NCBI RefSeq assembly: GCF_001940455.1
Contig: NZ_MKQR01000009.1
Span: forward strand, 1-64,000
Source: Actinokineospora bangkokensis
GTDB taxonomy: Bacteria > Actinomycetota > Actinomycetes > Mycobacteriales > Pseudonocardiaceae
Length of the DNA stretch: 64,000 nucleotides
Reading direction: 5' to 3'
The notes under the pieces are model-generated. The model had not been told where the DNA came from. It ran no database searches and saw nothing but the letters and a program-made list of their open reading frames with translations. Below, piece after piece: positions 42,509 through 52,210 of the stretch (positions are counted from its first letter, which is position 1; the number at the start of each line of letters is the position of its first letter). A program made the position numbers and the translations under genes.

Positions 42509-42598
42509 CGCGCGTCCCCCACCGCGCCCGGCCGGGAACAAAACCGGTCGCGCCCCGCGCTGGCCCTGGGGTACCTGTTGCCCCGGGGGTGGGAGACC

Positions 42599-43822
42599 AT
42601 GACCAACTCGCAAGCGGTCGCGCGCGGACCGCGGGCCCGCGTCATCCTGGTGCTGGGCGCGCTCATCGCGCTCGGCCCGCTCACCATCGACATGTACCTG
42701 CCCGCCCTGCCCGAGCTGGGCACCGAGCTGCGGGCGGCGCCGTCGATGGTGCAGCTGACGCTGACCGGCACGCTCATCGGGCTGGCCCTGGGCACGCTGG
42801 TCATCGGGCCGCTGTCGGACGCGCTGGGCAGGCGCAAGCCGGTCGTGCTGGGCATCTCCGTGCACGTGGCGGCCTCGCTGCTGTGCCTGGTCGCGCCGTC
42901 GATCGAGGTGCTGGGCCTGCTGCGGGTCGTGCAGGGCATGGGCGGCGCCGCGGCCTCGGTGGTCGCCTTCGCCGTCGTGCGCGACCTGTACGAGGGGCAC
43001 GCGGCCGCGGTCGCGATGACCCGGCTGATGCTGGTGATGGGCACCGCGCCGGTGCTGGCGCCGTCGCTGGGCGCGGCGGTGCTGCTGGCCGGGTCGTGGC
43101 GCTGGGTGTTCGCCGTGCTGGCCGGGCTGGGCCTGGTGCTGATCGCGGTGGCCCACTTCCTGCTGCCGGAGACCCTGGACCAGGCCCGGCGCAGGCCGCT
43201 GGCCCTGCGCTCGGTGCTGGGCACCTACCGGGGGCTGCTCGCCGACACCCGGTTCGTCGTGCTCGCCGCGGTGGCCGCGCTGTCGATGGGCGTGCTGTTC
43301 GCCTACGTCGGCGGGTCGAGCTTCGTGCTCCAGGACCAGTTCGGCCTCGACGAGCAGCAGTTCGGGCTCGTCTTCGCCGTCGGCGCGGTCTCCCAGTTCG
43401 GGCTGTCGCAGTTCAACCCGCTGCTGCTGCGCCGGATGCCGCCGGAGCGGGTGGTGTTCTGGGCGCTGAGCGCGGGGCTGTTCTTCGCCGTCGTCCTGCT
43501 GGTGGTCACCACCACCGGGTTCGGTGGGCTGGTCGGCTTCCTGGTGCCGGTGATCGCGCTGCTGACCTCGGTGGGCTTCGTGCTGCCGAACGCGCCCGCG
43601 CTGGCCCTGTCCCGCCACGGCGAGGCCGCGGGCACCGCCTCGGCCCTGCTGAGCGCCGCGCAGTTCACCACCGCCGCGCTGGTGGCGCCGCTGGTGGGCG
43701 TGCTCGGCAACGACGGCCCGGCGATGGCGGCCACCATGGTCGGCGGCCTGGTCATCGCCTGGGTGGCGCTGGTCGCGGTCAACCGCGCCGGGGCGAGGCG
43801 CGCGGAACTGGTCACGGCCTAG
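42599..43822 (+). CDS. Bcr/CflA-type multidrug efflux MFS transporter
   Basis: 407 residues with 12 predicted membrane helices. The N-terminal ALGPLTIDMYLPALPEL and GPLSDALGRRKPVVLG are characteristic of the Bcr/CflA drug/proton antiporter family, as is LGLLRVVQGMGGAAASVVAFAVVRDLY in helix 4-5. It probably exports antibiotics such as bicyclomycin-like or chloramphenicol-like compounds; the actual substrate is unknown. ATG 42599 follows GGTGGGAGACC. The stop is two bases before copy B of the dispersed 29-base repeat. Confidence 0.92.
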   Translation: MTNSQAVARGPRARVILVLGALIALGPLTIDMYLPALPELGTELRAAPSMVQLTLTGTLIGLALGTLVIGPLSDALGRRKPVVLGISVHVAASLLCLVAPSIEVLGLLRVVQGMGGAAASVVAFAVVRDLYEGHAAAVAMTRLMLVMGTAPVLAPSLGAAVLLAGSWRWVFAVLAGLGLVLIAVAHFLLPETLDQARRRPLALRSVLGTYRGLLADTRFVVLAAVAALSMGVLFAYVGGSSFVLQDQFGLDEQQFGLVFAVGAVSQFGLSQFNPLLLRRMPPERVVFWALSAGLFFAVVLLVVTTTGFGGLVGFLVPVIALLTSVGFVLPNAPALALSRHGEAAGTASALLSAAQFTTAALVAPLVGVLGNDGPAMAATMVGGLVIAWVALVAVNRAGARRAELVTA

Positions 43823-43899: not shown

Positions 43900-44199
43900 T
43901 CAGCGGCGCGGGTGGTCGCGGAAGACGACGTCGCCGTGGATGGTGCCCGCCTGGATGACGTTGCCCGCGTTGCCGGTGATCGTGTTGTGCACGGTGATCC
44001 GCTCGCCGGGCGCCTGCTGCGCCCGGCGAGCACCGTGCCAGCCGGGGGCGCCGTCGTCGGGGGAGGCCGTCACCGCCAAGGCGTTGTCGACGACCCTGGC
44101 CGCGAGCGCGGCGGTGTCGGCGATGAGCGCCCGCGGGGGTTCGCTCGCCAACCGGGCCCTGAGCGCGTTCGCCTCGGCGTGGATGTCCTTTTCGGTCAT
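43900..44199 (-). CDS. TIR-linked small protein with RHIM-like motif
   Basis: 99 residues in two parts. Residues 1-45 are helical and Ala/Arg-rich (MTEKDIHAEANALRARLASEP). Residues 72-93 (NTITGNAGNVIQAGTIHGDV) form a Gly/Asn/beta-branched segment with a V-I-Q-A-G core. This closely resembles the RHIM-like amyloid-signalling motifs (BASS3 type) found at the ends of bacterial NLR-type and effector proteins. A short charged tail follows. The ATG shares one base with the TIR stop (TGATG), so the two are translationally coupled. Amyloid formation is predicted only; the motif could instead be a simple beta-structured adapter. Confidence 0.75.
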   Translation of the reverse strand: MTEKDIHAEANALRARLASEPPRALIADTAALAARVVDNALAVTASPDDGAPGWHGARRAQQAPGERITVHNTITGNAGNVIQAGTIHGDVVFRDHPRR

Positions 44200-45122
44200 C
44201 AGCTCCCCCTCGACCAGTGGGCGGCGGTGTGGTGGCAGTCGGCCGCCAGCAGCACCCCCAGGCGCACCGCTTCCAGCGCGTGCTGCGCGCCCGGCAGGCG
44301 GGTGCCCATCTTCTCCAGCGACTCCGCGAGGTCCGCGTGCCGCCGGAAGACCTCGTGCAGGGGCTTGCCCAGCTCTCGCGCGAGGGCCTGGTGCTCCTGG
44401 GACCGGGTGAGCGCGGCGCGCAGTGCGTAGACGTCGCCGTTGAGCACGTGCGCGGTGTGCACCAACTCGGTAGGCGTATCCCCCAACTCGGTGACGAGCG
44501 CTGTGCTGTTCCCGCCAGCAGAGCGGATTGCCGCATGCGCGGTGTGCAGGTGTGCGCTGACGTCGAGCACACCGCGCAGCACGTTCGCCGTCAGCACCTC
44601 GACCGTCTCCCCGTTGTCGCACAAGGCCGGGTCCAGTGCGGGGGAGTCGACCAGCGCCCGCGCGACGGCGTGCACGCCCCGCCGGTAGACCCCTGACTCC
44701 GGCGACTCGAACCGCAGTTCGCGCCAGTCGCGGAACTGGTAGCGGTTCACCAGCGCCACCGCCGGGTCCGGCGCGGACGAGCGCGCCGACGGGTAGTCCA
44801 GGTACAGCAGCGGCAGCACCACCCGCCCGTCCTGCCGCCCACCCCGGGTGAACACGTTCAGCTCGCGCCTGCACTCGACCCGCTGGAAGAACCGCGGTGT
44901 GAGCACCGGGATGAAGTAGGCGACCGCGCGCAGCGCCTCGCCCACCTCCTCGTGCCAGGGCGCGCCCCAGTCCAGGTGGTCGAGGTCGAGCCACACCTCG
45001 GTGGGCACCCCGCTCGTCATGGTCAGCTCCGCGCCGAGGTCGCGCGCCAGCCGGGAGATCCGCCCGCCCTCGGCCTCGTCGTCGTGGCGCGAGTAGGACC
45101 AGAACGCGATCGTGCCGCTCAT
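44199..45122 (-). CDS. TIR-domain protein, putative conflict effector
   Basis: 307 residues. The N-terminal TIR domain shows the first strand TIAFWSYSRHDDEAEGGRISRLARDL, then VWLDLDHLDWGAPWHEEVGEALRAVAYFIPVLTPRFF and ECRREL, where Glu87 is placed like the catalytic glutamate of NAD-cleaving TIR domains. The C-terminal half (about 165-307) is mostly helical with no family I recognise (e.g. VLRGVLDVSAHLHTAHAAIRS). It is coupled to the small RHIM-like partner gene. The expected activity is NAD+ hydrolysis or cyclic nucleotide synthesis in anti-phage or conflict signalling. Start ATG 45122 has weak GGCGG upstream and TACCCT about 35 bases before. Confidence 0.85.
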   Translation of the reverse strand: MSGTIAFWSYSRHDDEAEGGRISRLARDLGAELTMTSGVPTEVWLDLDHLDWGAPWHEEVGEALRAVAYFIPVLTPRFFQRVECRRELNVFTRGGRQDGRVVLPLLYLDYPSARSSAPDPAVALVNRYQFRDWRELRFESPESGVYRRGVHAVARALVDSPALDPALCDNGETVEVLTANVLRGVLDVSAHLHTAHAAIRSAGGNSTALVTELGDTPTELVHTAHVLNGDVYALRAALTRSQEHQALARELGKPLHEVFRRHADLAESLEKMGTRLPGAQHALEAVRLGVLLAADCHHTAAHWSRGS

Positions 45123-45280: not shown

Positions 45281-48200
45281 TCACAGCAGGCCGAGGGCGG
45301 CCAGGTCGTCGGCGTACTTGGTGATCAGCGCCGGGGTGAGGTGCGGGATGTCCGAGCCGGTCGCGCGGACGGCCGCGTGGAACAGCGGTGCCGGGACGAC
45401 CGAGGAGTTCACCGCCGGGGTCGGGTGGGCGAAGGCGTCCATCAGCGGCAGCAGGGATCGTTGGCGCTGCTGCTCGGGCAGGCCGCGCAGGGCCGTGGTG
45501 AGCCGGTCGACCCACTGGCCGTGGTCCTCGATGCGGACGACGCGGTGGCCCGCCTCGACGAGCCAGTCGACGAAGGTGTCCAGGCCGATCCCGTCCGCGT
45601 GCGGGTTCAGCACGTTGTACGTGGTGTACCCGTCGGTCGGGGCCGCGCCGAGGTCGCTGATGGCCTTGGCGGTGAAGTCCACGGGCAGGCCGTCGTAGTG
45701 CGCGGGCCCGCCACCGGTGTGGAACGAGCGCGGGGCCAGACCGGTGACCAGGACGCTGAACAGCAGGCGCGTGAACATGTCCGGCACGTTGAGCTGCCCG
45801 GTGTAGCGGGTGTGCGCGAGGATCATGTCCGACCGGAACGCCCGCACGGGCAGACCGAACGCCTCGTGCGCCTCGCGCAGCAGCACCTCGCCCGCCCACT
45901 TGCTCGCCGCGTACCCGGTGGCGTACGAGGAGCCCAGCGCCCGCACGGGGGAGGCCTGGCGGATGTCGGCCTCCTCGTCGATGGCCGGGTCGTCGAGCAC
46001 GGCCACCGTCGACAGGTACAGCAGCGGCTTGAGCCGGGTGGTCAGCGTCACGCGGATCAGCTCCGCCGTGCCCACGACGTTGGGCCCGAACAGCTGGTCG
46101 TAGGGCAGCACGTGGTTCACCAACGCCGCGGGGTGCACGACCAGGTCCACCGACTCGGCCAACCGCCGCCACGTCCCGGCGGGCAGCCCGAGGTCCGGGT
46201 CAGCCACGTCCCCGGCCAGCACCTCCAGGTGGTCGGCGGCCACGGCGCGGAAGCGCTCCAGCAGGGCCTCGTCGCCGCTGTCGAACGCCGACTCCAGCCG
46301 GGCGCGCGCCGCGGCGGCGTCGGCGCCGCGCACCAGGCAGACCACCGTGCCGCCCACGGCCGCCACCCGGTCGAGCCACTCCAGGCACAGGAAGCGGCCC
46401 AGGTACCCGTTGGCGCCGGTCAGCAGGACCGTCCTCGGGGTGCCGGTGGGGCGGGGGAGCGCGGCGGCCGCGGCGAGGGTGTCGGCGTCGAGGAACTTCT
46501 CCAGGGTCAGGTCGGCCGCGCGGACCTCGGTGGCGCCCGCGCCGTGCACGCTCGCCGCGGTGGGGCGGGTGCCGCCGGAGGCGCGCTCGGCCTCGATGTG
46601 CGCGGCGATCGCGCGCAGGTCGTTGGCGGGGCTGATGACCACGCCCACCGGCACCGGCACGCCGAAGGTCTCGTGCAGCACCGTGGAGAACGACAGCGCC
46701 GACAGCGAGTCGCCGCCCAGCTCGGTGAAGTGGGCGTCCGGGCTGATCTGCGCGCCCGGCTGGCCCAGCAGCGCCCGCGCGGCCGAGCGCACGGTCTCCA
46801 GTACCGGGCGCTCGGCCGCGGTCCGGCGCAGCTCGCGCAGCTCCTCGACCTCGGCGCGGGCCAGGTCGGCGTAGAGCTGCTCCAAGCGGTCGCCGTAGCG
46901 CTCCTTGAGCCGGGGGCGCAGCAGCTTGCGGAGGTCGGAGAGCAGGCCGTTCTCGGTGGTGAAGGGGGTGTGCTCGACGAGGAAGTCGCGGGGGATCTCG
47001 TAGGAGTTGAACGAGCGGTCCGCCGCGACCTGGCGCAGCGCCGCGGCCAGCAGGGCGCGCAGCGCGTTCTCGTCGCCGCCGGACTCCGCCAGCGCCTGCT
47101 CGGACGGGACGAGCACCGCCAGCAGGTAGGCGCGCTCGCTGTTGCCGTAGACGTAGGACTGGCTGATCGCCGGGTGGGTGTCGAACGCGGCCTCCAGCAC
47201 CGCCACCGTGACGAACTCGCCCTGCGACAGCTTCAGCACGTTCTTGCGGCGGTCGAGGTAGGCCAGCCGGTCCGGGCCGATCTGGGCCATGATGTCGCCG
47301 GTGCGGTAGAAGCCGTCCTCGTCGAAGACCTCCGCGGTCAGCTCCGGGCGCTTGTAGTAGCCGGGCACCTGCTGGGCCGACTTCACCAGCAGCTCGCCGC
47401 GCGGGTGCGGCACGTCGGTGGTGAAGTACCCCAGCTCGGGGACGTCCACCAGCTTGTAGTCCAGCACCGGGGGCCGCATGACGTAGCCCTCGACGATGAT
47501 CATCCCCGCCTCGGTGGAGCCGTAGGCGTCGAACACCGGCCTGCCCACCACCGAGGCCAGGAACGCCGCCAGCTCCGGGGCCACCGGGGCGGTGCCCACC
47601 GCGGCGTGGGTCAGCCTGCCGCCGAGCACCCGCTCGCGCAGCTCGGCCTTGACCTGCTCCTCCTCACCCGGCCTGCGGTCGAGCTCGGCCTGGTAGCGCT
47701 GGAAGAGCATGTCGCACACCCGCGGCACCAGCAGCACCTCGGTGGGCCGCGCCAGGCCCATGTCCTCCAGCAGCGTCGACAGGTCGCTGCGCGCGGTGAA
47801 GTAGCCGCAGCCGCCCATGCTCAGCCCGCCGTAGAGGGCGACCCGGCCCGCAGCGTGGCTCATCGGCATGAAGTGGAACGTCACCGGGTCGGTGTTGTCG
47901 TTCCACCGCGCCGCCCACAGGCTCGCGACCTTGCGCTCGGTGTAGATGGCGCCCTTGGGGGCCCCGGTGCTGCCGGAGGTGTAGATCAACAGGCGCAGCG
48001 GGTCCGGGTCGCCGCCGGGGTCGGGGGCGGGGGCGGGTACCTCGGGCAGCGCGGCACCGGCCTCCCGCACCGACGCCAGGGTGCTCAGCCGCACCTGGGA
48101 GCCCGCCTCCGCGAGCGTGCGCCGGGCCTCGGCCACCGCCTCGCGCTCGTCGTCGACCTCGGGCCGGTGGTCGAACACCACGACCCGGCGCACGCACCCG

Positions 48201-48673
48201 GTGGCCAGCGCGATCCGCACCGCGGCGCCCACCCGCTCGGCGCTGGTGGCCAGCACCAGCGGCTCGGCCTCCGCGACCACCGGGATGAGCTGCTCGGCCG
48301 GGGAGTTGGCCTGCAACGGCACCGCCACCGCCCCCGCGATGAGGATCGCCAGGTCGACGGTGGTGTACTCGCGGCTGGTGAAGCCGAGGGTGGCGACGAA
48401 CCCGCCCGGGGGCAGCGGGTCGCGCTCGTCGTGGTGCCACTGGGCGGCGATGGCGGCGGCGTCCGCCCACAGCCGCGCGTAGGTGGTCGTGGAGAACGAC
48501 GGCAGCAGCCGCGCCGCCGTCCGCCCGGTGGCCGGGTCGGTCACCAGCTCCACGTCCCGCTCGGCGAGCGCGGGCCGGTCGGCGTGCTGCGCCATCGCCG
48601 CGCCCACCACGTCGCGCAGCCGCGGCCCGCCGGGCGACCCGACTTCCCGCAGCGCGCTCAACACCGTCGTCAT
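45281..48673 (-). CDS. car: Carboxylic acid reductase (A–PCP–R)
   Basis: NRPS-like enzyme of 1130 residues that reduces a carboxylic acid to its aldehyde with ATP and NADPH. The adenylation domain has [18 protein letters not shown] and [33 protein letters not shown]. The carrier domain has [14 protein letters not shown], whose Ser takes the phosphopantetheine. The reductase domain has [19 protein letters not shown] and [10 protein letters not shown] (YxxxK). Length and order fit FadD9/CAR enzymes. ATG 48673 is preceded by GAGGGGCGG. A phosphopantetheinyl transferase must come from elsewhere. The substrate could be a fatty or aryl acid. It is divergent from an unknown gene. Confidence 0.93.
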
Positions 48674-49558: not shown

Positions 49559-52210
49559 TCAACGCTCTGGCCGGGGCAGACGCGTGTGCTGCGCGTCCAA
49601 GTGGTCGCGCAGGTCGGTGAGGGCGGCGCGGTAGTTCTCCGAGTGCACGTCCGGGTGCGCCGACGCCGCTTCCCGCCACAGCGCGACCGACTGGCGCAGC
49701 GCCGTCAGCGCCTCCGCGCCCCGGTCCACCCGGTCCAGGCAGTGCGCCGACCGGCGCAGGGCCGCCGCGAGCGGGCCGATCCCCGCCTCCCGGTTCACCT
49801 CGTGCAGTTCGCGCAGCAGCGCGACGGCCTCCTCCGCGACCTTGACCGCCTCGGCGTCCTCGCGCACCCCCAGCAGGTGCCCGGCCAGGGCGTGCAGCCA
49901 CGCGCCCAGGTGCGGCAGGGCCCGGTGCCGGTTCCACTCCGCCAGCTCCCGGCCCGCCTCCACCGCCGCCCGCATCGACCCCGCCGCGTCGTCCGGCCGC
50001 CGGACGGCGCGCAGGCACTCCGCGCGCAGGGCGAGCGCGGTGCCCAGGCCGCGCAGGTGGGTCCGCCGGTCGACCGCCACCAGCACCCGGAAGTGGCCCA
50101 GCGCCTCGTCGGCGACCGGCAGCGCCTCGGCGGCCCGGCCCGCCGCGCGCAACCGGTCGGCCACCGCCAGCAGGGTCGTGGCCAGGTCGGGGATGCCGTC
50201 GCGCAACCGCCGCCGCTGCGCCAGCGCCTCCTCGACGGCGGAGAGGGCCTCGGCGGGGCGGCCCAGCTTGTCGAGCCGGTCGCTCAGGCTCGTCAGCACC
50301 GTCGCCAGCGCCGCCACGTGGGAGACCTCGTCGTGGCCGCGCAGCAGCGCGATCGCCTGCCTGCCCGTGGCGACGGCCTCGTCGGGGCGGCCCGCGAAGT
50401 CGAGGCTCACGCTCAGCTCGTCGAGGTCCGCCGCCCGCGCCAGCCGGGTGCCCGAGGCGGGGGAGCGGCGCGCGACGTCGACGGCTTCCTCGTAGCGGCC
50501 CAGGTAGCGCAGCCGCTCGACCAGCGTTCCCCGCACCCACCACAGCAACCCGGGGGCGTCCGCGTCCGGTGCCCGCTCCACCGCGGCCACGGCGTCCTGC
50601 GCGGCGGCGAGCGCCCCCTCCGGGTCCCCCAAGTCGGCCAGGCAGTCGCTCACCGCGGTCAACGAGCGGGCCACCCCCTGCGGCGCGTCGTCGCGGTCCC
50701 ACGCCCCCTGCCACAGCGCGAGCGCCTTGCGGTGCGAGGACAGGGCGTCCGCCGAGTGCCCGAGCACCCGCCACTGCATGCCCAGCAGGTCCCACGCCCG
50801 CGCGGTGTCCACCCGGTCCGCGCGCGGGTCGGCCAGCACCACCTGGATCTGGCGGATCGCCAGCGCCAGCCGCAACCGGGCGAACCCGCGCGGCGCCTCC
50901 TCCACCGCCAGCGACGGCACCTCGGGGGCGTCGCGCACCACGGCCGCCAGCATGGCGTCCACGGCGATGTCCCCCGGCAGGACCGCGAACACCGCGCGCA
51001 GCCCCGGGTCCAGCACGCCGCGGTTCGCGGTGAAGACGTGCTTGAGCAACCCCAGCACGTGCTCGGGGAAGTCCTGGTGGGTGCGGGTCAGCAGCCGGAC
51101 CACCGGGCCCGCCGTCTCCGGGGTCAGCCGCGTCAGCGCCTCGGGCTCCAGGTGGTTGGCCACCAACCACTCCGCCACCGCCATCGGCCGCAACCGGGGG
51201 CGGTGGTCGGTGCCCGGCGGGTAGCGCTGCCACACCCACTCCACCACGGCCACGAGCGCGGCGGTGGGGTGGTCGGCGAAGCGCGGCAGGCACCGCAGGG
51301 TGATCACCCCCGCGTAGGGGTCCGGGGCGGGCACCGCCACCAGCGCGGCGACGGCGGCGAGCAGGTCGTCACCGGGCAGCGGCGCACCGCGCCACCGCAC
51401 GGTCTCCAGCGTCAGCAGCTCCGCGGCGACGTCCCGGGCGGTCACCGAGCGGGAGTCGGTGCGGTGCGCCACCGCGAGCAAGGCCCTGGCGTGCACGAGG
51501 AACACCGTGTCGCCGTCCGCACCCACCCCCGCGGCGCCGAACGGCGGCACACCGGTGCGCAGCTCCTTGGCGTAGGCGCGGACGGCGTCGGTGTACCAGC
51601 GCACCCGGTCGGTCGGCCCGCCGAACGCCGAGAGCACCACCGGTGGCGCGTCGACGCCGAAGCCGAGCGAGGCGCGCAGCCGCTCGGCGTCGCGCGCCAG
51701 CAGCAGGACCCGCACGGGCACGGTCGCCCGCGCCACCACCGCCAGCAGCTCGGGCAGGTCCGACCGCAGCTCGGCGTCGTCCACCAGCACCAGCGAAGGC
51801 CCCCGCACCGCACCGGTCAGGCCGTCCACCCGACGCAACCACCCCGCCGACCACGGCCGCGGCAGCGCCTCGGCCACCGCCACCGCCAACCGGGTCTTGC
51901 CCACCCCCGCGGGTCCGCCCAGCACCCGCACCGACACGCCCGTCCCCGAACACCACTCCACCAGCTCGGCGCGCTCGCGCCGCCACCCCCACAACCGCGT
52001 CACCGGCGCCGAGAGCAACCACAGCGGTTCGGTCGACCGCGTGGGCCGGACCGGCGCGAACACCCGCTCCCACGCCACCGCGCGCCGGTCCCGGCGCCTG
52101 CGCCGCCGCCGGAGCACCACCCACACCGCGGTCGCGAGCAGCACCGAGGCGCCGGCGGCCGCGGCGTAGCGCCCCCAGCCCCGCGTCCACGCCTCCGCCA
52201 GCCAGCCCAC
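49559..52210 (-). CDS. Membrane-anchored STAND-like NTPase with TPR-like repeats
   Basis: About 883 residues. An N-terminal transmembrane helix (YAAAAGASVLLATAVWVVL) is followed by a run of arginines, placing the rest in the cytoplasm. The NTPase shows Walker A GGPAGVGKTRLAVAVAE and Walker B-like SLVLVDDAEL. The C-terminal half consists of helical repeats of TPR type, e.g. GDPEGALAAAQDAVAAVERA, GRPDEAVATGRQAIALLR, GRPAEALSAVEEALAQRRRL. This resembles STAND signalling ATPases (AfsR/NLR-like) without an obvious effector domain. GTG 52210 is chosen for GGAGG six bases upstream. A sensor or scaffold role is inferred. Confidence 0.85.
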   Translation of the reverse strand: MGWLAEAWTRGWGRYAAAAGASVLLATAVWVVLRRRRRRRDRRAVAWERVFAPVRPTRSTEPLWLLSAPVTRLWGWRRERAELVEWCSGTGVSVRVLGGPAGVGKTRLAVAVAEALPRPWSAGWLRRVDGLTGAVRGPSLVLVDDAELRSDLPELLAVVARATVPVRVLLLARDAERLRASLGFGVDAPPVVLSAFGGPTDRVRWYTDAVRAYAKELRTGVPPFGAAGVGADGDTVFLVHARALLAVAHRTDSRSVTARDVAAELLTLETVRWRGAPLPGDDLLAAVAALVAVPAPDPYAGVITLRCLPRFADHPTAALVAVVEWVWQRYPPGTDHRPRLRPMAVAEWLVANHLEPEALTRLTPETAGPVVRLLTRTHQDFPEHVLGLLKHVFTANRGVLDPGLRAVFAVLPGDIAVDAMLAAVVRDAPEVPSLAVEEAPRGFARLRLALAIRQIQVVLADPRADRVDTARAWDLLGMQWRVLGHSADALSSHRKALALWQGAWDRDDAPQGVARSLTAVSDCLADLGDPEGALAAAQDAVAAVERAPDADAPGLLWWVRGTLVERLRYLGRYEEAVDVARRSPASGTRLARAADLDELSVSLDFAGRPDEAVATGRQAIALLRGHDEVSHVAALATVLTSLSDRLDKLGRPAEALSAVEEALAQRRRLRDGIPDLATTLLAVADRLRAAGRAAEALPVADEALGHFRVLVAVDRRTHLRGLGTALALRAECLRAVRRPDDAAGSMRAAVEAGRELAEWNRHRALPHLGAWLHALAGHLLGVREDAEAVKVAEEAVALLRELHEVNREAGIGPLAAALRRSAHCLDRVDRGAEALTALRQSVALWREAASAHPDVHSENYRAALTDLRDHLDAQHTRLPRPER

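Follow-up and report, generated by a model that had tools for sequence, protein, structure and literature searches.

An overlapping gene pair for a TIR-domain protein and a small protein with an NLR-associated tail motif in Actinokineospora

The gene pair and its TIR protein

The minus strand of the window (the whole 64-kb stretch of DNA that was analysed, from the soil actinomycete Actinokineospora bangkokensis) contains two open reading frames that an original prediction, made from the sequence of this DNA, had described as a translationally coupled TIR gene and small-protein gene. Both are present at the predicted positions, and they do overlap: the stop codon of the TIR gene and the start codon of the small gene share 1 nt in the sequence TGATG. 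The pair and its immediate neighbours are as follows.

44199..45122, minus strand: gene for the 307-aa TIR protein, which has its TIR domain at about residues 5–160 and a C-terminal helical bundle at about 172–305
43900..44199, minus strand: gene for the small partner (99 aa; predicted hairpin at residues 3–17 and 22–45, linker 46–66, tail 67–95)
43915..44001, minus strand: coding sequence of the tail motif, located with the family profile
42599..43822, plus strand: left flank, MFS transporter (gene-caller start at 42599; the longest ORF begins at 42578)
45281..48673, minus strand: right flank, carboxylate-reductase-like protein (1130 aa; AMP-binding, PP-binding and NAD_binding_4 domains)

The window has no Rfam match at gathering scores, no sigma-70-like promoter was found, and two terminator-like sites lie inside the small gene on the plus strand. 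Nothing was found that speaks for the anti-phage or cell-suicide role originally proposed for the pair; its two flanking genes encode a transporter and a carboxylate-reductase-like enzyme. An 883-aa STAND-like/TPR protein with, by eye, an N-terminal hydrophobic stretch and a P-loop is encoded 4.4 kb from the pair (49559..52210, minus strand); it was rejected as a sensor because it has no tail motif and two genes lie between it and the pair.

The 307-aa protein matches Pfam TIR_2 over residues 25–133 with 38.7 bits (cut-off 28; E = 1.6e-9). Glu87, which had been singled out as plausibly catalytic, lies within the sequence 'VECRREL'. All 14 aligned homologues have this Glu, as they have the preceding Cys-Arg; when a profile built from these 14 sequences is aligned to the flax L6 TIR structure, it falls on the Glu of 'KWCLMEL', which we take to be the catalytic residue of that protein. 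This portion of the original prediction stands. When the same profile is run against the PDB it finds flax L6 (E = 9.3e-6), TcpB (6.2e-5) and the 'TIR protein' 3h16 (0.0021), whereas the single TIR sequence finds no TIR structure there, so that it is the family profile alone that reaches them; through its C-terminal part the profile additionally picks up numerous coiled-coil and designed helical chains, which were not counted as relatives. The homologues share a C-terminal helical region that ends near a Trp present in 13 of the 14 aligned sequences, and a structure model of the window protein, made from a two-row alignment, has long helices there, at pLDDT values of about 61–84 by blocks of ten residues from 171 onwards; in its TIR part pLDDT is below 50, and that part was left out of use. 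A TIR domain with a Glu at the catalytic-site position makes this protein a probable enzyme, putatively an NADase or a producer of a nucleotide signal. The TIR chain itself has no tail motif (the motif is described below).

More specific assignments of the protein did not hold. Its best NCBIfam match is FxsC (NF040588), the TIR-like proteins of actinomycetes, but the score of 43.3 bits is far below the equivalog-domain cut-off of 130 and membership was rejected. In PADLOC-DB the best match is PDC-S66 (E = 5.8e-6), which is weak and covers TIR residues 41–105 only; with no full-length match to the TIR protein and none to the small protein at E ≤ 1, a known PADLOC-DB anti-phage system was rejected as well.

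The small protein and the family of its tail

The 99-aa protein has no Pfam (RHIM included), NCBIfam or PADLOC match at E ≤ 1. Its structure model, again from a two-row alignment, contains a confident helical hairpin (residues 3–17 and 22–45), a linker of low confidence (46–66), and two strands predicted at modest confidence (67–75 and 81–90). The original prediction was correct about the length of this protein and the presence of V-I-Q-A-G near its C-terminus, but VIQAG ends 14 residues short of the C-terminus and is part of a motif of about 30 residues, here called the tail, that reads NxxxGxxGxVIQAGxIHGxVxF. The N-terminal part has no match among 25 other tailed proteins, that of Actinokineospora pegani (below) included (phmmer, E ≤ 10), and the protein has no convincing relative in its own genome, where the next best match has E = 0.11.

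Profiles for the tail were made from an alignment of 17 tails (A1), most of them search matches. A leave-out profile, for which the window and A. pegani rows were dropped so that 15 other family motifs remained, gives 50.6 bits for the window small protein and 33.9 bits for that of A. pegani; among 2000 shuffled versions of the window tail (1904 of which were reported) the highest score is 10.8 bits, and the match of the window tail is therefore not due to chance. At E ≤ 0.01 alignment A1 finds the tail family in 176 of 297 related genomes, the same set from whose members A1 was built. A strict DNA pattern for the tail gave one match in the own genome and its backwards control also gave one, so this pattern was uninformative and the protein profiles were relied on.

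From about 150 places listed, 80 neighbourhoods enriched for short frames were chosen by hand (one of them the own-genome NLR and one the A. pegani pair, both below), which with the window make 81 loci. The best tail match is C-terminal in its ORF at 34 of these loci; at the other 47 it lies elsewhere, mainly near the N-terminus of long ORFs. Of five N-terminal carriers sent to Pfam, each matches both NB-ARC and TPR at E ≤ 0.1; three of the five exceed the Pfam cut-off for NB-ARC, and three that for TPR_12. A short tailed ORF and an NLR-size ORF with the tail motif occur in one locus in four cases among the 81 (L122, L129, L137 and L144), the NLR-side motif being weak in two of them (E = 0.0014). 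According to PMC7889193, it was through such neighbouring small effector-side and NLR genes that the amyloid signalling motifs of bacteria came to be recognised. Because the tail is found at the N-termini of NB-ARC/TPR proteins and at the C-termini of small helical proteins on the effector side, as BASS-type motifs are, and because the two occur together at four loci, we regard it as an NLR-associated motif of this type. The connection with NLRs made in the original prediction is thereby borne out for the family. A wider TIR profile finds TIR in 2 of the 81 tail neighbourhoods (among the matches listed), which are the window and the A. pegani pair.

The original prediction saw novelty in a tiny separate carrier of the motif, but small tailed proteins are common: for 26 of the 34 C-terminal loci just mentioned, in a set enriched for short frames, a gene caller gave a short gene, and 21 of these 26 genes encode 106–115 aa. 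The unusual element is the TIR neighbour, which itself lacks a tail. A loosely defined 'MPEP..'-like start is present at 24 of the 34 C-terminal loci and belongs to an N-terminal half that differs from that of the window protein; Bell-domain effectors carry a small helical domain with a hydrophobic helix ahead of the motif, and the window protein, for which a helical hairpin is predicted, has no similarity to these MPEP-type tailed proteins.

Several other tailed proteins deserve mention. In seven genomes (L128, L132, L135, L143, L147, L152 and L158) a tailed protein of 106–113 aa is encoded between a 68-aa gene, cold-shock-like by eye, and a gene of about 240 aa; this position is conserved, no second tail-motif ORF was found in the 12 kb covered, and the protein has a fixed chromosomal home. 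The proteins at L118 and L140, called at 74 aa in frames of 83 and 86 aa, consist by eye of one hydrophobic helix plus the tail and are among the smallest tailed proteins observed. A search of the own genome for further proteins that end in the motif, as had originally been suggested, gave a weak C-terminal tail (G000:C2:155897-155968; L067 and L271), at the end of a protein of about 238 aa (E = 0.76 within the genome; 15.3 bits when the peptide is scored by itself). This protein has no Pfam match at E ≤ 0.1; we take it by eye to be cyclase-like, and it may possibly be a second effector on the same signalling motif.

The more specific name given to the motif in the original prediction, BASS3-like and related to RHIM, had to be given up. 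The tail profile does not report the BASS3 peptide of Frankia, with the core GVQVGDGNVQIN (Table 2 of PMC8086366, where it is described as aggregating in an amyloid-like manner), at E ≤ 100, and the leave-out profile misses it even at E ≤ 1000, a comparison that involves a single BASS3 sequence. There is no Pfam RHIM match, and the window tail has only a hydrophobic-Gln-x-Gly tetrad in common with BASS3. A literature search on the motif letters gave nothing relevant by title, and no paper was found on amyloid behaviour of the tail motif.

Recurrence of the pair and candidate sensors

The same two genes are adjacent in A. pegani (G136), with 44% identity to the window TIR protein and 38% to the small protein, and there a 4-nt overlap, GTGA, would result from a GTG start; among the matches listed, the pair is known in at least these two species. 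Since the N-terminal parts of the two small proteins have no phmmer match, the detectable similarity between them is mainly in the tail and the gene order. The TIR gene and its tailed partner are nonetheless a real, conserved pair. The A. pegani orthologues of the window flanks (59% for the carboxylate reductase, 67% for the transporter) are oriented towards each other about 0.54 kb apart with no TIR pair in between, the corresponding gap in the window being 1.46 kb, and the A. pegani pair is on another contig with other flanks; the pair therefore stays together at different sites in the two species. The direct repeats at the ends of the pair amount to an 8-mer only. By eye, the A. pegani gap seems to contain a transposase remnant.

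Homologues of the TIR protein were found at 39 places in 35 of the 297 genomes of the bacterial family searched, and among 16 genomes of the genus (own included) three have a homologue at E ≤ 1e-5 and two have the pair. A class-wide search matched 9 of 384 genomes, again with the own genome included. The 38 TIR loci that were examined for tails (30 of the 39 family places and 8 from the class-wide search) were covered to 1.5 kb past the matched part, less at contig ends and partly taken up by the rest of the TIR gene; within this stretch a tail lies beside the TIR homologue at two loci and at none of the 8 class-wide ones, and the TIR family at large thus manages without a tailed partner. TIR genes as such are plentiful, since TIR_2 is present in 186 of 294 genomes. 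In a wider scan of genome contigs, the TIR protein alone brought up no relative, and the two-species alignment brought up A. pegani together with an Anaerolineae TIR protein whose repeats look WD40-like by eye. Partial TIR matches occur in 2 of 72,556 plasmid records, and the phages searched have none.

Other small partners were seen beside this TIR family. In the third genus genome with a homologue (G100, examined at one of its two places; L016, 695..2178, minus strand), the TIR gene overlaps by 4 nt the gene for a 164-aa Fic/DOC protein (PF02661, E = 1.5e-7), which there replaces the tailed protein. At L031–L034 the TIR homologues are preceded by an overlapping gene for a protein of 123–177 aa with a hydrophobic segment by eye, another putative small partner; the one from L032, the only one of the four run, has no Pfam match.

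The own genome contains one clear NLR with the tail motif, a 704-aa NB-ARC/TPR protein on a contig other than that of the pair (G000:C29:9818-11929; motif E = 1.7e-6). By similarity to the window tail, which itself comes first, its motif ranks 73rd of 95 (84th when trimmed) and so resembles that tail no better than the motifs of foreign NLRs do; motif similarity gives this candidate no support as a cognate sensor. A. pegani has weaker NLR candidates, one of them in a 711-aa frame (E = 0.063) whose motif takes 95th place among 95 in similarity to the A. pegani tail. These ranks give no sign of a tuned sensor–effector pair. Related NB-ARC proteins, with the motif or not, are present in 16 of 16 genus genomes, so their presence alone says little. 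There is no second tail motif in the 64-kb window or in 18 kb around the A. pegani pair, the remaining matches in both genomes lying on different contigs or at a distance, and adjacent effector and NLR genes that share a motif, as in BASS-type pairs, are found at neither locus.

How the pair may work and what it may mean

The pair is assembled from known parts. The BASS/Bell–NLR pairs of multicellular bacteria (Dyrka 2020, as described in PMC7889193, PMC8086366 and PMC12261475) likewise have a small helical protein with a short C-terminal motif whose family is found on NB-ARC/TPR N-termini, as on one protein of the own genome; unlike them, the window has its TIR enzyme and motif on two proteins, and the NLR is not adjacent. 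BASS motifs with TIR domains are mentioned in PMC7889193, and there too a TIR effector is tied to a BASS-type motif, whereas the window TIR chain is motif-free and the overlapping gene provides the motif. The EAD and death-like adaptors, for example the paired bDLD3 proteins of which one has STAND and one TIR (PMC8195603), have a similar adaptor logic with recruitment of effectors, TIR among them, but the window element is a predicted beta motif of about 30 residues and not a helical death-like domain. No description of a TIR protein with a separate tailed small protein was found in the literature searched, mostly papers outside subscription, and it is this arrangement that is undescribed there.

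We give roughly even credence to the view that the two genes form an effector unit whose amyloid-type input is split from the enzyme: a tail-bearing NLR would cluster and activate the TIR protein by way of the small protein, which would serve as a detachable adaptor. The TIR protein would be the enzyme of the unit, and the 99-aa protein would bind it, probably helix to helix, and carry the input tail. When a cellular NLR oligomerises, its N-terminal motif of the same family would template the tail into a stacked beta-arch; the templated tails would cluster the TIR domains, which would then cleave NAD+ or make a nucleotide signal and so stop or kill the cell. The TIR_2 match with Glu87, the tail on NLR N-termini, the four joint loci, the same-genome NLR and the A. 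pegani pair all support this mechanism, as do the hairpin and two strands predicted for the small protein and the mention in PMC7889193 of BASS motifs with TIR domains. It is weakened by the position of the own NLR on another contig and the low rank of its motif, by the unmatched N-terminal part of the small protein, by the failure of the single TIR sequence to find a TIR structure in the PDB, and by the unusable TIR part of the model.

The original prediction had instead the small protein as a self-contained nucleator: once its concentration rises or damage occurs, its tail would polymerise and switch on the TIR protein without any NLR. The absence of a second tail motif near either pair, the own NLR motif that is not tuned to the window tail, and the joint presence of the two genes at different places in two species would suit such a switch, but the usual partner of the tail family is an NLR N-terminus and the small protein has no recognised sensing domain, and we consider it unlikely. 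A toxin–antitoxin-like pair, in which the small protein keeps the TIR enzyme inactive and the tail serves turnover or release, seems to us distinctly improbable: a small gene does overlap that of a probably toxic enzyme, and overlapping genes for small partners of various kinds are also seen beside some other TIR homologues, yet the tail is a signature of signalling partners and accompanies so few of the TIR homologues examined. We rate lowest a stoichiometric, fibre-free docking of the tail as a beta-hairpin onto NLR motifs, with the TIR protein recruited and activated on the NLR oligomer, which would accord with a tail structure based on sequence plus a two-strand prediction of modest confidence and with the missing literature on its amyloid behaviour, but not with the amyloid-like aggregation of the BASS3 peptide, which comes from the same gene arrangement (PMC8086366).

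A more far-reaching version of the effector unit with a detachable adaptor is put forward tentatively, as a possibility rather than an expectation: the pair may be a movable two-gene 'plug-in' effector, a tail-less TIR protein with a detachable prion-like adaptor, that is driven by whatever tail-motif NLRs the host has. Sensor and effector would then need neither to travel nor to co-evolve as a pair, which would fit the finding that no NLR is linked or tuned to the pair and that its sites differ between the two species. If the adaptor mechanism itself is true, a prion-like input motif can be separated from the enzyme under its control, and the small protein would correspond in bacteria to the adaptor proteins of animal inflammasomes. 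The pair offers a minimal three-part test (NLR, adaptor and TIR) of whether bacterial amyloid motifs transmit a death signal.
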